Below are positions 17,001-35,432 of a DNA stretch of 39,558 nucleotides, in pieces. The notes below the pieces were generated by a model. That model was not told the DNA's origin. It saw only the letters and a program-made list of their open reading frames with translations, and made no database searches. Within the stretch, counting starts at the first letter, position 1. The number at the start of each line of letters is the position of its first letter. This DNA comes from Candidatus Omnitrophota bacterium (GTDB lineage: Bacteria > Omnitrophota > Gorgyraeia > DTHP01), in the NCBI GenBank assembly GCA_023819145.1, contig JAMWCW010000012.1, positions 1-39,558 of the forward strand, in the 5' to 3' direction. The translations under genes and the position numbers were made by a program.

Positions 17001-17642
17001 CTACCTCCTGTTTTCGAAATTATTTTTTGCCAATTTCTTTACTTCCCTCTCAAAAAATTCTTTTACATTTTCCCAATCAACTTTTTTTAGCATTTTGGGC
17101 ATCTCTTCTTCTTCAGCATCCTCAAAATAAACTAAACTTTTTTGGATATGCACCAGGTTGGCAGTCAGAGTTTTGTACTTACGGTTATATAACAAGAGAG
17201 TTTCTTTCAGAGATATCCCTTCTTTACAAATGAAATAAAGGTCAATAAAATCGCGTTTGGTTCCCCGGCAAGCGATAGCCGTTATTTTCATGACTGCCAC
17301 ATCAGAAATATCCGCAACATTTATCATTCCAAATTTTTTAAACGGATAAAACAAAGGATATTTATAGTAAAATATACTGAATTTTACACCCTTAAAATTA
17401 CCTATTATTGTCCTCCAGGAAATTCTCTCGAGATGAAAACCACTTATTTCCTCCACCTCCGGCAAAAGCAGATTTTCATCAAATGCTTCTTGAGTAAAGA
17501 AGTCTAAGTCATAAGAAATACGATGTCCCAATTGCAGTGCCAAGGCAGTTCCTCCTGCCAGATATGCTTTCTGAATAATCTGGTTTTTCCCTAATAAGGC
17601 CAGAATTGCTTTTGTATTCCCCGGAAGGACCTCTGCAAACAT
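17001..17642 (-). CDS. AbiEii/AbiGii-type nucleotidyltransferase toxin
   Basis: AbiEii proteins are nucleotidyltransferase-fold toxins of toxin-antitoxin or abortive-infection systems. The 213-residue protein has the signature AYLAGGTALALQLGHR (about 27-41, GGT at 30-32) followed by SYDLDFF with D45-x-D47, the second motif FSIFYYKYPL, and KITAIACRGTKRDFIDLYF (about 118-136), where the K-x-x-A...R-x-x-x-R-D-F-x-D pattern is characteristic. It overlaps the upstream small gene by 52 bp, a common toxin-antitoxin layout. Confidence 0.8.
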   Translation of the reverse strand: MFAEVLPGNTKAILALLGKNQIIQKAYLAGGTALALQLGHRISYDLDFFTQEAFDENLLLPEVEEISGFHLERISWRTIIGNFKGVKFSIFYYKYPLFYPFKKFGMINVADISDVAVMKITAIACRGTKRDFIDLYFICKEGISLKETLLLYNRKYKTLTANLVHIQKSLVYFEDAEEEEMPKMLKKVDWENVKEFFEREVKKLAKNNFENRR

Positions 17643-17893
17643 TTTATCCTTTCTTTTTCAATTCCCAGAATTAAAGCCCAAAAGTTAGCAGTTTTTGGCG
17701 AGTATCCACGGAATTTGCACAAAGTATTTTTTATCTCGTCTTTCCTAAACTCTTTAAACATCCATCGCACTGCTTCCTCATCTCCATATTCCAGAATTCG
17801 TTTTAAGACATATACACGGTGATTTTTAAAATCTATCTGCTCAAAATCCGTATCCCAGAAATACTTCTTTAAGAATTTAGGTAATTCTCCCAT
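17591..17893 (-). CDS. small partner of AbiEii (DUF6922-like antitoxin)
   Basis: The 100-residue protein reads PKFLKKYFWDTDFEQIDF...RILEYGDEEAVRWMF...FRGYSPKTANFWALILGI. This resembles the short DUF6922-type proteins that precede AbiEii-like toxins, where the FWD-x-D-F and ERILEYGD-x-x-A-V-x-W signatures recur. The antitoxin role is inferred from the overlap and order, not shown. No clear Shine-Dalgarno precedes the ATG. It is divergent from the ExeA-like gene. Confidence 0.65.
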   Translation of the reverse strand: MGELPKFLKKYFWDTDFEQIDFKNHRVYVLKRILEYGDEEAVRWMFKEFRKDEIKNTLCKFRGYSPKTANFWALILGIEKERIKCLQRSFRGIQKQFWPY

Positions 17894-19317: not shown

Positions 19318-19582
19318 TAAAGTTTAAAGCGCAAAACTAAGATAACGAATATAACGAATTTAACGAAATTAACGAACACAACGAACCAAACAGGGATCCG
19401 TAAACCGTAATCGGTAACCCGTAATAAGAAGCGTAAAGTACAAAGCGCAAAGCGCAAAACGGAAAACGAGCAAAACGAATAGAACGAACTAAACGAAAAT
19501 AACGAATAGAACGAATTCAACGAACATAACGAAATTAACGAAACTAACGAACACAACGAACTAAACGAATATAACAAACATT
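19318..19582 (+). repeat. compound 9-bp/7-bp repeat array
   Basis: The gap opens with AAGCGCAAA-like sequence, then AACGAANNN units in strict 9-bp steps. A block of 7-bp units (CCGTAAA, CCGTAAT, CGGTAAC, CCGTAAT) follows, then a second AAGCGTAAAG block and about a dozen more AACGAANNN units up to the pilin ATG. Bases 19393-19461 match 20192-20260 at all but two of 69 positions. No Shine-Dalgarno is left before the next gene. The unlikely minus-strand reading frame here is a translation of the array (Phe-Val-x)n. Confidence 0.9.
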
Positions 19583-20080
19583 ATGAAAAATAGTGGTTTT
19601 ACGCTCATGGAGATTGTTTTGGTAATTGTTTTAGTGGGTATTTTAGGTATTACTTTTGCGGTGAAATATTCTGGTTTTGAGGAGACAAAACTTTCTTCAG
19701 CAGCAAGTAAACTTGCCGCGGATATTGCTTATGCCCAACAATTGGCAATTACCACCCAACTCTACCACGGAATCTCTTTTGACTCTAACGCTGAAGAATA
19801 TTATCTTTTTCGCATTGAAACAAATAACACTCAAACCACCATAAAAAACCCTTCTACAGGAGAAGATTTTGTGGTAGAATATGATTTTGGAGAATTGCAG
19901 GGGATTAATCTCCAAACAGTAAATATCGGCGGAGGAACAGAAATTATTTTTGACTGGCAAGGAATACCTTATGATAATTCAAAAACCGCTCTTACCAGTG
20001 ATGCTACAATTACTTTAGAATATAGAGGGCGAACAAAAACCTTAACCGTGATTGCGGGAACGGGAAAAGTAAGCTGGTAA
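19583..20080 (+). CDS. GspH/FimT-like minor pseudopilin
   Basis: The 165-residue protein begins with a prepilin signal: a short leader ending in SG, then FTLMEIVLVIVLVGILG with Phe+1 and Glu+5. The C-terminal beta-rich globular domain and the AADIAYAQQLAITTQ helix are typical of GspH/FimT, minor pseudopilins of the initiating tip complex. No Shine-Dalgarno precedes the ATG, which directly follows a repeat array. Order H-I-J-K downstream matches type II secretion operons. Confidence 0.87.
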   Translation: MKNSGFTLMEIVLVIVLVGILGITFAVKYSGFEETKLSSAASKLAADIAYAQQLAITTQLYHGISFDSNAEEYYLFRIETNNTQTTIKNPSTGEDFVVEYDFGELQGINLQTVNIGGGTEIIFDWQGIPYDNSKTALTSDATITLEYRGRTKTLTVIAGTGKVSW

Positions 20081-20092
20081 ATCAGTAATCCG

Positions 20093-20337
20093 TGATAATT
20101 TAGGGATTCGTAATCCGTAAATCGTAATTCGTAATTACAACTAAACGAACTAAACGAATTTAACTAAATTAACGAACAAAACAAACTAAACGGGATCCGT
20201 AAACCGTAATCGGTAATCCGTAATAAGAAGCGTAAAGTACAAAGCGCAAAGCACAAAACGAAAATAACGAACCCAACAAATTTAACGAAATTAACGAACT
20301 AAACGTTTTACCAATTACTGATTTACCGATTACGAAC
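20093..20337 (+). repeat. compound 7-bp/9-bp repeat array
   Basis: It opens with 7-bp units in the GTAATCN sense (ATTCGTAATCCGTAAATCG...), continues with AACGAANNN units, the 69-bp copy at 20192-20260 and more AACGAANNN units. It closes with units in the opposite sense (CCAATTACTGATTTACCGATTACG) that abut the next ATG. The opening and closing 7-bp blocks are mutually complementary and could pair across the gap. Confidence 0.88.
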
Positions 20338-20339
20338 GT

Positions 20340-20735
20340 ATGCAGATGAATCGTGGTGTTACTTTACTGGAATTGGTTGTTTTTATCATCGTCGCCGGAA
20401 TTGCTCTGCCTCCCCTTTTAATGGTCGCTTCCCAAGCGGTGCACAATGCTGTAGTCAATGAAATAATTTTAACCAGCACCGGTTTAGCAGAAGGAAAAAT
20501 GGAAGAAATAAAATTGCTTAATTTTGATAATGTAGGAGATAGCTTGGGAACATTTAGTAGTCCGTTTGGAAATTATAGTTTTTCGGTAAGTGTGGGTTGC
20601 GTTACTAGTTCTAATTATGATAATCCCCAAACCTGCCAACCAACCGATAATTATAAACGTGTGGCAGTAACCGTAAGTAATTCCATTATTCCCCAAATAG
20701 ACTCAACTTTAGTCACCATAATCACCAAAAGATGA
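20340..20735 (+). CDS. GspI/PilV-like minor pseudopilin
   Basis: The 131-residue protein has the prepilin motif NRG then VTLLELVVFIIVAGIAL with Glu+5, and a small C-terminal domain with two Cys (about 82 and 94) that could form a disulfide. The size and the place between H- and J-like genes fit GspI/PilV, which nucleates the pseudopilus tip. No ribosome-binding site is visible. The stop overlaps the next start (ATGA). Confidence 0.83.
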   Translation: MQMNRGVTLLELVVFIIVAGIALPPLLMVASQAVHNAVVNEIILTSTGLAEGKMEEIKLLNFDNVGDSLGTFSSPFGNYSFSVSVGCVTSSNYDNPQTCQPTDNYKRVAVTVSNSIIPQIDSTLVTIITKR

Positions 20736-21181
20736 GGGGTAACTTAAATAAAAAATCGGGCTTTACTCTGCTGGAGTTAGTGATTGTGATTGCCTTGGTG
20801 GGCATACTTGCTCTTTTCTTAGCGGAAGTAATAAGAAGAGGTGTGGAGTCCTGGTATTTCGTGATGGACAAGGAGGAGCTTGCTCTGCAAACTCCTTATG
20901 TTTTAACGCGTCTGGTGCGGGAATTGCGCACTGCCAATACGGTAACTTCTGCTTTGGGAAATACCATTGTTTTTAAAGATTACCAAAATAATACTTTTAA
21001 CTACGCTCTTTTCGGCAATGTTCTTTACCGCAACGGAAGTCCATTATTAGATGGAGTAACAAATTTCTCTTTACAATATTATCCCTCAAGTAGTAATATA
21101 AGAATGGTAACTATAAGTTTACAAAGAAGTAAAGGCGCCTATAGTCTATCCTTGCAGAGCGGAGCGAAACTGAGAAAGTGA
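20732..21181 (+). CDS. GspJ/PilW-like minor pseudopilin
   Basis: The 149-residue protein has the prepilin motif KSG then FTLLELVIVIALVGILA with Glu+5. The body, with SWYFVMDKEELALQTPYVLTRLVRELR after the helix (in part: LQTPYVLTRLVRELR), is GspJ/PilW-like. It is translationally coupled to the GspI-like gene. It is shorter than typical GspJ (about 190-200). Confidence 0.82.
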   Translation: MRGNLNKKSGFTLLELVIVIALVGILALFLAEVIRRGVESWYFVMDKEELALQTPYVLTRLVRELRTANTVTSALGNTIVFKDYQNNTFNYALFGNVLYRNGSPLLDGVTNFSLQYYPSSSNIRMVTISLQRSKGAYSLSLQSGAKLRK

Positions 21182-21182
21182 G

Positions 21183-21240
21183 AAGTTAAACGAATCAAAC
21201 GAACACAACGAACTAAACGAACACAACGAACATAACTGAC
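21183..21240 (+). repeat. 9-bp repeat array
   Basis: Six AACGAANNN units in 9-bp register (variable triplets TCA, CAC, CTA, CAC, CAT) fill the gap between the GspJ-like gene and the MntA-like gene. They read in the direction of both genes. Confidence 0.85.
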
Positions 21241-21247
21241 ATAAAAA

Positions 21248-21550
21248 ATGGTTAAAGCTTCTAAGGATGATATAATTACTTATCTTAAAAAAAATAAGCG
21301 GTTTTTTAAAAAAGAATTTGGGGTGAGGGATATAGGAATTTTTGGAAGTTTAATCACTGACAGCCGGGTTAAAGGAAGCGACATAGATATTATCATTGAA
21401 ATGGAGAAAGATAAGAAAAATATACATAATTTTCTCAACTTTAAAAGATTTTTAGAAAACCAGCTACAAACGGAGATAGATTTGGGTTTGGCAGATGCCT
21501 TGAAGCCGGCAATAAAGGAAGAAATAGAAGACAAGATAATTTATGTCTGA
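21248..21550 (+). CDS. mntA: MntA-like nucleotidyltransferase antitoxin
   Basis: MntA-type antitoxins adenylylate the HepT toxin. The 100-residue protein has the exact minimal-nucleotidyltransferase motif: GS (33-34), ten residues, then D-I-D (45-47), followed by a further acidic residue in the EIDLGL strand (about 76). It overlaps hepT by 8 bp. Both genes sit inside the pseudopilin series, bordered by repeat arrays on each side. Confidence 0.85.
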   Translation: MVKASKDDIITYLKKNKRFFKKEFGVRDIGIFGSLITDSRVKGSDIDIIIEMEKDKKNIHNFLNFKRFLENQLQTEIDLGLADALKPAIKEEIEDKIIYV

Positions 21551-21890
21551 AAAGAGGCGCGAGGAACTCTATTTACAAGATATTCTTGATTCCGGCAATG
21601 CAATTCTTGAGTTTGTTAAAGGTTTATCCCTTGGTAAATTTATCAAAGATAGGAAAACTTACTCTGCGGTAATTAGAGAATTTGAGATTATTGGTGAGGC
21701 AGTGGGGAAAATTTCCCAACCGAGAAAAGCAAAATATCCCCGCGTAGCGTGGCAAGATATAAAAGATTTTCGCAACTTATTGAGTCATGAATATTTTGGC
21801 GTGGATGTGGAAATAGTTTGGAAGATTATAAAAGATGATTTACCTACTCTCTTAGCCACGGCAAAAGAAATGTTGGGAGAATTGAAATAA
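21543..21890 (+). CDS. hepT: HepT-like (DUF86) RNase toxin
   Basis: The 115-residue all-helical protein has the HEPN RNase motif R-x4-H-x-Y: R77-NLLS-H82-E-Y84. The surrounding YPRVAWQDIKDFRNLL segment and the N-terminal FEIIGEAVGKIS helix are typical of DUF86/HepT. Paired with the MntA-like gene it forms a type VII toxin-antitoxin module, cargo unrelated to secretion. Base usage looks like the neighbours. Confidence 0.86.
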   Translation: MSEKRREELYLQDILDSGNAILEFVKGLSLGKFIKDRKTYSAVIREFEIIGEAVGKISQPRKAKYPRVAWQDIKDFRNLLSHEYFGVDVEIVWKIIKDDLPTLLATAKEMLGELK

Positions 21891-21903
21891 TAATAAAGAT
21901 AAA

Positions 21904-22012
21904 TTACGCCAGTAACGAATACAACGAATATAACGAACAAAACGAGATTAACGAATAAAACGAACCTAACGAACAAAACGAAAATAACGAAATTAACAAA
22001 CTAAACGAGAAT
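21904..22012 (+). repeat. 9-bp repeat array
   Basis: About twelve AACGAANNN units in 9-bp steps run from behind hepT to near the Shine-Dalgarno of the next gene, with triplets such as TAC, TAT, CAA and CCT. The orientation matches both flanking genes. Confidence 0.88.
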
Positions 22013-22037
22013 CGGTAACGAAATAAGGAGTGGGCAA

Positions 22038-23099
22038 ATGAAATTACGAAAATTTAAAAGAAACACAAAGGATGCTAAGAAAAAGAAACAGGGGATTTCT
22101 CTCTTGGCAGTAATTGTTACCATCGTCTTTCTTACCTTAGTGGGTTTTGTAGGGCTTTCTATGCTCTCTACAGGGACGCGAAAGTCAGTAGACTATCTTT
22201 ATTCCGAGAAGGCATTTTACATTGCCGAAGCAGGAGTAGAGGTAGCTTTAAGGAAATTGCAAGATAATTGGGATAATTGGAAAACCTCTTCAAATTTTCC
22301 CAATGGGAGCCTTGCAGGAGGCACCTTTAGTTTATCTGTATACGACGATGATGATGGAGACAATAACCCTGACACTGACTCCAATAACTGCGTAATCATT
22401 GAATCTACAGGAGAGTATCAACAAGCGAGAAGAAGAATTAAGGTCTATGTAGATAGAAGTGGTCTCCCTGATGCTGCCATCTATTCAAATAATAATGTAG
22501 ATGTAAAATCTAACAGTGCTGATGTCACAGGAAATGTGGTTGCCAATACCATAAATGATCCCCATAATCGTATCAGTGGGGAAAAGGAAACAGGTAATAC
22601 TTTTTTACCTACTTTAGACCTTGCCTGGTTTAGAGCGCAAGCGGAGGCAAATACTTTAAATGGCAATAAAGGCTCCCCCGGTAATTATTTCCCCGGCGAA
22701 TTCAAAACAAACCTCCCATCCTTAAATGGGGTTATTTATATTGATACTTATGTAAGCGGAAATAACAAACACAAAGTAACCATAAGCGGTAACATTATCA
22801 CTGAGAGTGGAGAAGGAAATCCTGCGGTACTCATTATCAATGGTGACCTCAATCTAAAAGGAACAGGCGCGGGTCTTAAATTTAATGGGCTTATTTATGT
22901 TACCGGTGAAGTGGAGGCAGACAGTGATATTGGAGGAAATGTAGAAATTTCAGGGATGGTTATTTCCAACGGCGCACTGGACATCGCAGGAAATGCTGTT
23001 ATAGGTTATAATGCGGATTCTATTCCCGGTAGCGTCCGAAATCATCTTTACGGAACACCACGGATGTTTAATTTTAAAGAAATAGCAAGTATCCCTTAG
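22038..23099 (+). CDS. GspK/PilX-like pilus component
   Basis: The 353-residue protein has a long basic leader ending KKKQG, then ISLLAVIVTIVFLTLVGFV. Position +5 is Ala, not Glu; in type II secretion the tip pseudopilin GspK is the one that lacks Glu+5. The helix continues AFYIAEAGVEVALRKL, a PilX-N signature. The rest (about 75-353) is beta-rich with many Asn/Asp/Gly, DNN-type turns and a repeating VTGNVV/ISGNII/ISGMVI rhythm that suggests a beta-helix. AAGGAGTG precedes the ATG. Likely tip or surface-exposed minor component. Confidence 0.75.
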   Translation: MKLRKFKRNTKDAKKKKQGISLLAVIVTIVFLTLVGFVGLSMLSTGTRKSVDYLYSEKAFYIAEAGVEVALRKLQDNWDNWKTSSNFPNGSLAGGTFSLSVYDDDDGDNNPDTDSNNCVIIESTGEYQQARRRIKVYVDRSGLPDAAIYSNNNVDVKSNSADVTGNVVANTINDPHNRISGEKETGNTFLPTLDLAWFRAQAEANTLNGNKGSPGNYFPGEFKTNLPSLNGVIYIDTYVSGNNKHKVTISGNIITESGEGNPAVLIINGDLNLKGTGAGLKFNGLIYVTGEVEADSDIGGNVEISGMVISNGALDIAGNAVIGYNADSIPGSVRNHLYGTPRMFNFKEIASIP

Positions 23100-26068: not shown

Positions 26069-26140
26069 AAAACGCAAAGCGCAAAACGAATAAAACGAAT
26101 CTAGCGAATATAACGAACCCAACAGACCTAACGAAACTTA
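26069..26140 (+). repeat. 9-bp array with 7-bp tail
   Basis: After ACGCAAAGCGCAAA come AACGAANNN units, some decayed (CTAGCGAAT, CCAACAGAC). 7-bp GTAAGNN-type units follow to about 26175. They read in the gene direction. The pilin promoter lies just downstream. Confidence 0.8.
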
Positions 26141-28845: not shown

Positions 28846-29010
28846 AAACTTAAAGCGCAAAACGAATAAAACGAAAATAACGAAATCAACGAAATCAACG
28901 AACAAAACGAAGATAACGAATAGAACGAATTCAACGAACAAAACGAGCCAAACGAGATTAACGAATTTAACGAAAATAACGAACTAAACGAACAAAACGA
29001 ACTAAATCCG
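28846..29010 (+). repeat. long 9-bp repeat array
   Basis: After AAAGCGCAAA about sixteen AACGAANNN units run in 9-bp register between pilO and pilP. Some units are altered (AACGAGCCA, AACGAGATT). The orientation matches the genes. It is one of the longest uninterrupted arrays here. Confidence 0.9.
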
Positions 29011-29502: not shown

Positions 29503-29597
29503 CACGGGATTCGTAATCCGTAACCCGTAAAGCGTAACTTTTAATTCTGATTACTGATTACCAATTACTGATTACCGATTACGGATGTACCAATTAC
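29503..29597 (+). repeat. 7-bp repeat array with inverted arms
   Basis: 7-bp units run first as GTAATCN (ATTCGTAATCCGTAACCCGT) and then as GATTACN (GATTACTGATTACCAATT...). The first and last blocks are complementary at about 14 of 17 positions, so the leader of the secretin gene can fold into a long hairpin ending about 20 bp before AGGAGGGGG. Confidence 0.82.
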
Positions 29598-31261: not shown

Positions 31262-31397
31262 GAAGCGTAAAAGCGAACCAAACGAATAAAACGAACACAA
31301 CGGACACTAGCGCACCAGAACACCAGTGAAAAACGGGGATTCGTAATTCGGATTACTGATTACCGATTACCGATTACTAATTACGGATTACGGATTC
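31262..31397 (+). repeat. compound 9-bp/7-bp array
   Basis: A short, decaying 9-bp block (AACGAATAA, AACGAACAC, AACGGACAC, TAGCGCACC) is followed by a 7-bp block in the GATTACN sense (GATTACT, GATTACC, GATTACC, GATTACT...) ending near TCTAGAATTC. It lies after the secretin and before the kinase promoter. Confidence 0.82.
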
Positions 31398-33289: not shown

Positions 33290-33376
33290 CCACCTCGTAG
33301 GTGTCCCATAACTACCTCCATAAGTCGATAATTTATCGATACTTAAGTAGGCCGATTCTGGACACCTACGAGGTGG
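33290..33376. repeat. 87-bp palindromic element, copy B
   Basis: Perfect 17-bp inverted arms (CCACCTCGTAGGTGTCC at 33290 and its complement ending 33376), each arm a mini-hairpin, flank an interior TCGATAA/TTATCGA stem. It is the same length as copy A at 752-838 but has a different interior. It lies between convergent genes, so it may terminate or stabilise both transcripts. Confidence 0.75.
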
Positions 33377-33390
33377 TAGACGGTTGAGGA

Positions 33391-33450
33391 AAGGTTTGGT
33401 TGGTTTGTTAGTTTCGTTTAGTTCGTTTAGTTCGTTAAATTCGTTTAATT
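33391..33450 (-). repeat. 9-bp repeat array
   Basis: On the minus strand AACGAANNN units (triplets TTA, TTT, CTA, CTA, ACT) follow the stop of the receiver gene at 33457. They read in that gene's direction even though the neighbouring plus-strand gene is on the other strand. Confidence 0.85.
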
Positions 33451-33456
33451 CGTTAC

Positions 33457-33888
33457 CTACTTCTTCACTCCGCGTTCAACGGTTATTTTTCCTAAGAGTT
33501 TTTCTAAGGCAGGGAACATTTCTTGGGGCTTAAAGGGTTTGGTGAACCAAGCGTCCACACCTACTTCTTTTGCCGGTTCTTCGCCCAACTTATCGGAACG
33601 GGCGCTAAACATCACCAAGGGGATATTGCGGAAGCGTTTGTCAAATTTAATAAAGCGTGCCACTTTATAGCCATTCATCTCGGGAAGCATTAAATCCAGA
33701 ATAATTAAGTCTGCAGGCGCCTCTCGTAACTTCCTCAGCCCTTCATTACCCGAGAGGGCAAGCGTTACCTTATAGCCAGCCGACTCTAAGTGTTCTATGA
33801 GCTCCTTAACGGTTTCCGGCTCATCGTCAATGATTAAGATTTTCTTCTGCTCGGCAGTTTTCTCTTTTTCGGGCGTATCTTTTTTCAT
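33457..33888 (-). CDS. receiver-only response regulator
   Basis: The 143-residue protein is one receiver domain with a charged N-terminal extension (about 1-15). It has D21-D22 in IIDDEPET, phospho-Asp65 in ILDLMLPEMNG, Ser95 in place of the usual Thr (MFSAR) and Lys117 in WFTKPFKP. No output domain. It lies downstream of the GAF histidine kinase in the same direction, likely its partner, separated by a repeat array. Confidence 0.86.
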   Translation of the reverse strand: MKKDTPEKEKTAEQKKILIIDDEPETVKELIEHLESAGYKVTLALSGNEGLRKLREAPADLIILDLMLPEMNGYKVARFIKFDKRFRNIPLVMFSARSDKLGEEPAKEVGVDAWFTKPFKPQEMFPALEKLLGKITVERGVKK

Positions 33889-33898
33889 GGGTTAGTTA

Positions 33899-34000
33899 GG
33901 TTCGTTTAGTCCGTTGGGTTCGTTAATTTCGTTATATTTGTTGTGTTCGTTAATCTCGTTGAATTCGTTTTATTCGTTTTGTGCGCTTTACGCTTTTTAA
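33899..34000 (-). repeat. 9-bp repeat array
   Basis: On the minus strand, after AAGCGTAAAGCGCAC, about ten AACGAANNN units run between the kinase stop and the receiver start. Some are altered (AACAAATAT, AACGGACTA). The orientation is the coding strand. Confidence 0.87.
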
Positions 34001-35324: not shown

Positions 35325-35432
35325 ATCAGTAATTCGAAACCCCTTGTGTTCGTTGGGTTCGTTAGTTCGTTATATTCGTTAATTTCGCTTAATTCGTTAT
35401 TTTCGTTTTGCGCTTTGCGCTTTAAACTTTTA
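35325..35432 (-). repeat. compound 9-bp/7-bp array
   Basis: On the minus strand, AAAGCGCAAAGCGCAAA, then AACGAANNN units, and at the end 7-bp GATTACN units (GAATTACTGATTATGGATTACGG) that run into the kinase start. The block order is the same as in the plus-strand arrays. Confidence 0.87.

Follow-up and report, generated by a model that had tools for sequence, protein, structure and literature searches.

A predicted HepT/MntA toxin-antitoxin module inserted in a pilus/type II secretion operon and bordered by nine-base-pair arrays

The window, that is, the whole stretch of 39,558 nucleotides analysed here, is the entire contig C12 of the draft genome G000 (1.51 Mb, 31 contigs, 96.7% complete). 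On its plus strand an MntA-like MNT gene, encoding a predicted adenylyltransferase antitoxin (21248-21550; PF01909, 3.7e-10; PADLOC PDC-S09, 1.3e-27), is followed by a HepT-like gene for a predicted HEPN RNase toxin (21543-21890; PF01934, 8.7e-25), whose product found no match in the PADLOC search. The two open reading frames, of 100 and 115 amino acids respectively, overlap by 8 bp. Both signature motifs are exact, GS(LITDSRVKGS)DID in MNT and R(NLLS)HEY in HepT, and in alignments of 21 sequences each G33, S34, D45, D47 and D78 of the MNT protein and R77, H82 and Y84 of the HepT-like protein are invariant. A sequence-only reading of this DNA had announced a complete toxin-antitoxin (TA) pair with exact GSx10DxD and RxxxxHxY motifs, and the reading frames, Pfam matches and motif residues confirm it.

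As single sequences neither protein found a solved structure at 0.001 (phmmer). Profiles built from each protein and 20 others, two of them from G000, did so: the best match of the HepT profile among solved chains was 6m6u (3.2e-8), and the MNT profile matched 5yep (4.6e-9), ranked after 1wot (6.1e-19), a putative minimal nucleotidyltransferase. The 6m6u and 5yep entries are solved HepT/MntA chains, which we take to be from Shewanella. Scores against NCBIfam NF047751 (HepT, 39.3 bits) and NF047752 (MntA, 32.2 bits) lie under the 60-bit cut-off, and the pair is therefore not filed under either family. As defined in PMC7641770, class I HEPN/MNT modules combine a HepT that carries Rx4HxY and PF01934 with a neighbouring MNT that carries GSx10DxD and PF01909, and HepT is an RNase toxin held in check when AMP is transferred to the tyrosine of its motif. 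Both sets of sequence features are found in the 21248-21890 pair, which by its sequence is a class I HEPN/MNT (HepT/MntA, "type VII") module. It shares the PF01934 and PF01909 families, both motifs and gene adjacency with Shewanella oneidensis SO_3166/SO_3165 (PMC7641770), but identity is low and the G000 pair lies inside a pilus operon.

The last gene before the pair is a GspJ-like prepilin gene (20732-21181, plus strand; PF07963, 1.4e-7), which matches the TIGR01711 GspJ model weakly, at 16 of 64.85 bits. After the pair comes a gene at 22038-23099 (plus strand), 80% identical over residues 8-353 to G001:C28:6731-7768 and with a longer N-terminus than its counterpart there. Its protein has no Pfam match at 0.001, and the label GspK-like is given by operon position. 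The placement of the pair between GspJ-like and GspK-like genes thus stands as to position and the prepilin type of J, while the GspJ model is weak and K takes its name from its place in the operon.

In G001, the nearest genome with a homologous operon, from the same family as G000 and another genus, the GspJ- and GspK-like genes overlap by 4 bp. Local alignments to this junction stop at window position 21177 and resume at 22077, delimiting a lineage-specific inserted stretch at 21178-22076 (plus strand) whose ends are approximate. It holds in order the J stop codon, the left array, MNT, HepT, the right array, a ribosome site and the first 13 codons of K, and the break points imply that the inserted stretch itself supplies the stop codon of J and the ribosome site and first codons of K. 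G001 has five PF01909 matches, none of them at the J/K junction. We fetched 29 K-type loci from relatives and read 11, one of which ends at a contig edge; in none of the 11 are J and K separated by an MNT or HEPN gene. In eight of the ten with an upstream prepilin-like gene J and K overlap or are at most 16 bp apart, the other two gaps measuring 84 and 163 bp. A second relative, G002 (81% complete), has no match to the K protein. These observations bear out the earlier claim that the module was inserted, since the G001 junction holds neither module nor arrays, and the contrary outcome, a module fixed at this place in relatives without the arrays, was not seen. A derived insertion at J/K is therefore supported by the sequence comparison. 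The junction has a close homologue in one genome only, G001, and loss of the module there is countered only by more distant K-type loci that are 26-37% identical and may not all be orthologues.

Of 285 genomes taken from the phylum, G000 among them, 54 have HepT matches at E<=1e-15. At 17 of 19 HepT loci of relatives BLAST matched both MNT and HepT; of the remaining two, one has a HepT with an in-frame stop and the other an MNT recognised by motif only. A motif search of the flanks of these 19 loci, about 1.5 kb on each side, found no prepilin motif. One HepT locus of a relative (L048) lies close to small frames that by eye resemble Flp pilins. Within the window itself an AbiEii and DUF6922 pair lies on the minus strand at 17001-17893, without bordering arrays, and the genes beside it, one ATPase-like (ExeA type by eye) and one weakly T2SSB-like, are missing at that place in G001.

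The arrays that border the module, as the earlier reading had correctly placed them, are built of a fixed AACGAA followed by three variable bases that are poor in G (8 G in 396 spacer positions). The left array (21189-21233, plus strand) has 5 units; by eye one more degenerate unit and then AAAAA lead directly to the MNT start, with no Shine-Dalgarno sequence. The right array (21914-22012, plus strand) has 11 units. The 9-mers are often preceded by GTAATC-type heptamers and a AAAGCGCAA stretch, which makes them part of a dispersed composite repeat. A 125-bp piece of this composite occurs at 22 places in G000, itself included, at one place weakly in G001 and nowhere in G002. Exact three-unit matches number 37 in G000, 32 of them in C12 between 19.3 and 33.5 kb; the reversed pattern used as a control gave 0 matches in G000, and G001 has no 9-mer arrays. 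Among 384 genomes of the class six contain the three-unit pattern, and the five other than G000 have one or two matches each: inside open frames in G369 (twice), G373 and G256, and between genes in G200 and G289, in the latter against gene direction. A wider scan of the contig collection for array runs returned at least 117 stretches with at least 121 runs, of which at least 18 have three or more different spacers. At one further locus (L060, 1943-2264) arrays lie on both sides of an apparent serine tRNA gene.

Most array-filled gaps hold no cargo, and several of them are nearly closed in G001. Cargo-free arrays on the plus strand include a composite of 9-mers, heptamers, an AAAGCGC head and 9-mers before the first pilin gene (19335-19581), a second composite between two pilin genes where the gap in G001 is 15 bp (20109-20301), an array in the F/G gap (26085-26138) and a 16-unit array in the O/P gap (28861-29004). 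On the minus strand one array (33401-33454) occupies a convergent gap and shares its strand with the gene at 33457-33888, another reaches the start codon of that gene (33889-33978) and a third lies between two minus-strand genes (35346-35407). When gaps of at least 15 bp are counted with a simple gene caller, 9-mer or heptamer arrays are present in 12 of the 14 gaps at 18.9-39.5 kb of the window and in none of the 14 gaps at 1-18.9 kb. In a genome sample of 20 spread stretches (343 genes, 359,990 readable bases) the figure is one of 162 gaps. In the gaps whose sequence was inspected, the 9-mer arrays are on the strand of an adjoining gene. A simple rule that arrays follow gene direction was nevertheless rejected, since the heptamer runs at 29549-29583 and 31351-31392 are on the strand opposite to the genes, and the two-unit run that fills the single positive gap of the sample is oriented opposite to its genes. 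The window also has two copies of a palindromic stretch of 90-100 bp (33290-33376 and 743-838), possibly a miniature element.

A promoter of its own for the pair was considered and rejected: promoter-like sites between 19200 and 23200 number 12 against 11.3 expected, none of them in the gap that precedes MNT. In four of the eight array-bearing gaps of the window, those before MNT and the first pilin gene among them, a simple test detects no Shine-Dalgarno sequence. At 19583, 21248 and, by eye, 33888 (minus strand) the array reaches the start codon or ends a few bases from it, and no Shine-Dalgarno sequence was seen. One may speculate that the arrays help translation or have an effect at the level of the transcript.

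By four family or protein searches and by reading we counted 12 TA or TA-like modules in G000, an incomplete list that excludes a nucleotidyltransferase match in C7 (419 amino acids) and includes an AbiEii-like gene in C9 on its family match. The others are the MNT-HepT and AbiEii-DUF6922 modules of C12, MNT-HepT2 and a DUF6036/AbiEii-type module in C1, HTH-Fic in C15, two MNT-HepT in C26, an MNT-HEPN and two further nucleotidyltransferases in C28, and one MNT-HEPN at the end of contig C13. The C26 pairs are both on one 3.9-kb contig (L035), together with a gene that reads as transposase-like. Three modules have 9-mer arrays on both sides: the C12 MNT-HepT, the C1 MNT-HepT2 and, in degenerate form, the C15 HTH-Fic.

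Four TA or TA-like modules elsewhere in G000 lie between direct repeats, two of them in array-bearing DNA. The clearest case is HTH-Fic in C15, flanked by 115-bp direct repeats identical at 114 of 115 positions (L244, 1-115 and 995-1109); each consists of an array joined to a segment in which a promoter can be made out by eye. Contig C1 opens with a third copy (L261, 1-105), 105 bp long and identical to the right one, before a gene that reads as ATPase-like. MNT-HepT2 in C1 is flanked by a 57-bp direct repeat (47 of 57 positions, 82%; L055, 6164-6220 and 7054-7110) that lies inside composite arrays; its right copy starts at the HepT2 stop codon, and no further copy was found among the G000 loci of the BLAST database. 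The G002 locus of the gene neighbouring this module has other neighbours and so provides no empty site. In C28 (L242) 49-bp repeats flank the MNT-HEPN, 85-bp repeats flank a lone MNT, and a 158-bp sequence recurs at both ends with 95.6% identity. Repeated pieces of 49, 85 and 158 bp separate the MNT modules of C28 and of the C13 end (L243); by position they are not arrays and read as fragments of a gene for a membrane protein.

Repeat pairs of this type (45 bp, 75% identity, 300-2500 bp apart) were found once in the 360-kb genome sample and not at all in C26, at the C13 end or at the array loci of C2, C6 and C16. With looser settings (30 bp, E 1e-3) one of 19 HepT loci of relatives and none of 28 control loci at K-type genes had flanking direct repeats, and most HepT modules of relatives are thus without them. 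The single positive is the MNT-HEPN pair of G022, with 113-bp direct repeats that are 88.5% identical (L044, 956-1068 and 1862-1974) and a second pair of 45 bp. Together the repeats suggest that long direct repeats came in with some of the G000 TA modules, as reported for genes of restriction-modification systems. Because the numbers are low and gaps with arrays cluster, we claim no precise probability.

The sequence-only reading had proposed that the arrays at J/K served as recombination points for cargo. On this reading the junction would have held an array beforehand, and recombination with an incoming array-bearing fragment would have left the module, carried on that fragment, between two half arrays. 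Both bordering arrays have the same orientation, and the module is bracketed by no direct repeats other than a 48-bp pair of 83% identity running from array to array. The 115-bp repeats at HTH-Fic, made of a degenerate 9-mer array and a promoter-like stretch, and the 57-bp repeat inside the composite arrays of MNT-HepT2 offer parallels. However, 12 of the 14 gaps in this part of the window hold arrays, so that finding two next to the pair is to be expected and uninformative. The left and right arrays match at 37 of 45 positions, a likeness equalled or bettered by 50 of the 153 pairs among 18 arrays, and the same repeat search gave 17 pairs in the window, all in arrays. A target duplication at this module, looked for as well, was not recognisable among such ordinary array matches, and the only alignment between the tail of J and the head of K is short and falls in the right gap, outside K. 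Exchange of array segments between gaps was likewise rejected, shared spacer runs (k=2) numbering 25 against 24.5 expected after shuffling of 19 arrays. Furthermore, no bordering arrays were seen at seven further TA or TA-like modules, namely two in C26, three in C28, one in C13 and the C12 AbiEii pair, within the stretches read, some of which are ended by contig edges. Since G001 lacks 9-mer arrays, no junction inside an array can be shown. The arrays fill gaps with or without cargo and the bordering two are no more alike than others, and the claim is unsupported at this site. We regard it as rather unlikely here; repeat-mediated insertion is plausible at the level of the genome, but at J/K the sequences do not demonstrate it.

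That the module came first, by any route, and that arrays spread later into the two new gaps as elsewhere in the operon, comes close to an even chance in our judgement. Cargo-free gaps have been filled too, for example between the pilin genes, and the first pilin gene and the gene starting at 33888 (minus strand) have arrays up to the start codon just as MNT does. Against this order of events, arrays in C1 and C15 are few and most lie at TA borders, the exceptions being at 70.2 kb of C1 and 3.8 kb of C15, and only a strain in an intermediate state would separate it from insertion through the arrays. A module ancestral at J/K and lost together with the arrays in G001 and other relatives is highly improbable: we found no point in its favour, J/K is compact in G001 and in seven of nine more distant loci with an upstream prepilin-like gene, and HepT is patchy in the phylum.

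A parallel for the repeats at other modules comes from restriction-modification genes, which Nobusato and colleagues reportedly described in 2000 as inserting with long target duplication. Such insertion is also described in PMC3031569 and PMC3874152. As there, addiction-type genes lie between direct repeats of about 100 bp at other G000 TA modules, but the genes are TA and not restriction-modification genes, and in two cases the repeat is array-bearing. Repeats of that length are clear at C15 and shorter or diverged at C1 and C28. The arrays themselves recall the TAACTGA repeats of Beggiatoaceae and cyanobacteria (PMC4679880): short intergenic tandem repeats with one G per unit, mostly in gene direction and often at start codons without a ribosome site. 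They differ in the unit (AACGAA plus three G-poor bases), in the accompanying heptamers, in reaching 16 units and in their concentration in one 16-kb stretch. Cassettes of super-integrons that carry TA operons (PMC2654758) also have TA units bordered by repeats, whereas the repeats of G000 are arrays or ordinary sequence.

The account we favour, and hold to be probable, is that a complete class I HepT/MntA module entered the GspJ/GspK-like junction of the pilus/type II secretion operon after the lineage split from G001, and that the arrays, dispersed repeats of intergenic DNA, came to occupy operon gaps whether or not these held cargo. The module may have entered by the route that left direct repeats at other G000 TA modules, either recombination between repeats or insertion that duplicated a long target; any footprint at J/K would be older or masked by the arrays, and the array-to-array repeats around the module, of a kind common among arrays, are no telling trace of such a route. 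Since the gap before the pair has neither a promoter-like site nor a Shine-Dalgarno sequence, we infer that the pair is read through the array as part of the operon. HepT would cut RNA, and MntA would silence it by adding AMP to Tyr84, as in Shewanella. A bolder view, which we think unlikely, is that in this lineage dispersed array-bearing repeats provide shared homology by which unrelated addiction cassettes, of the MNT-HepT, MNT-HepT2, HTH-Fic and perhaps AbiEii types, are captured and moved without a dedicated recombinase, the module of the pilus operon being an older product.

The J/K module is in itself ordinary, one of very many. A predicted RNase toxin inside a pilus operon could tie toxin dose to pilus expression, which we offer as an idea only. 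The possible weight of the finding lies in the genome, in which several unrelated TA modules sit between long direct repeats, some on the same arrays. If confirmed in close strains, this would extend to TA modules a mobility route of restriction-modification genes, and would offer a place to study how small addiction cassettes move without a transposase.
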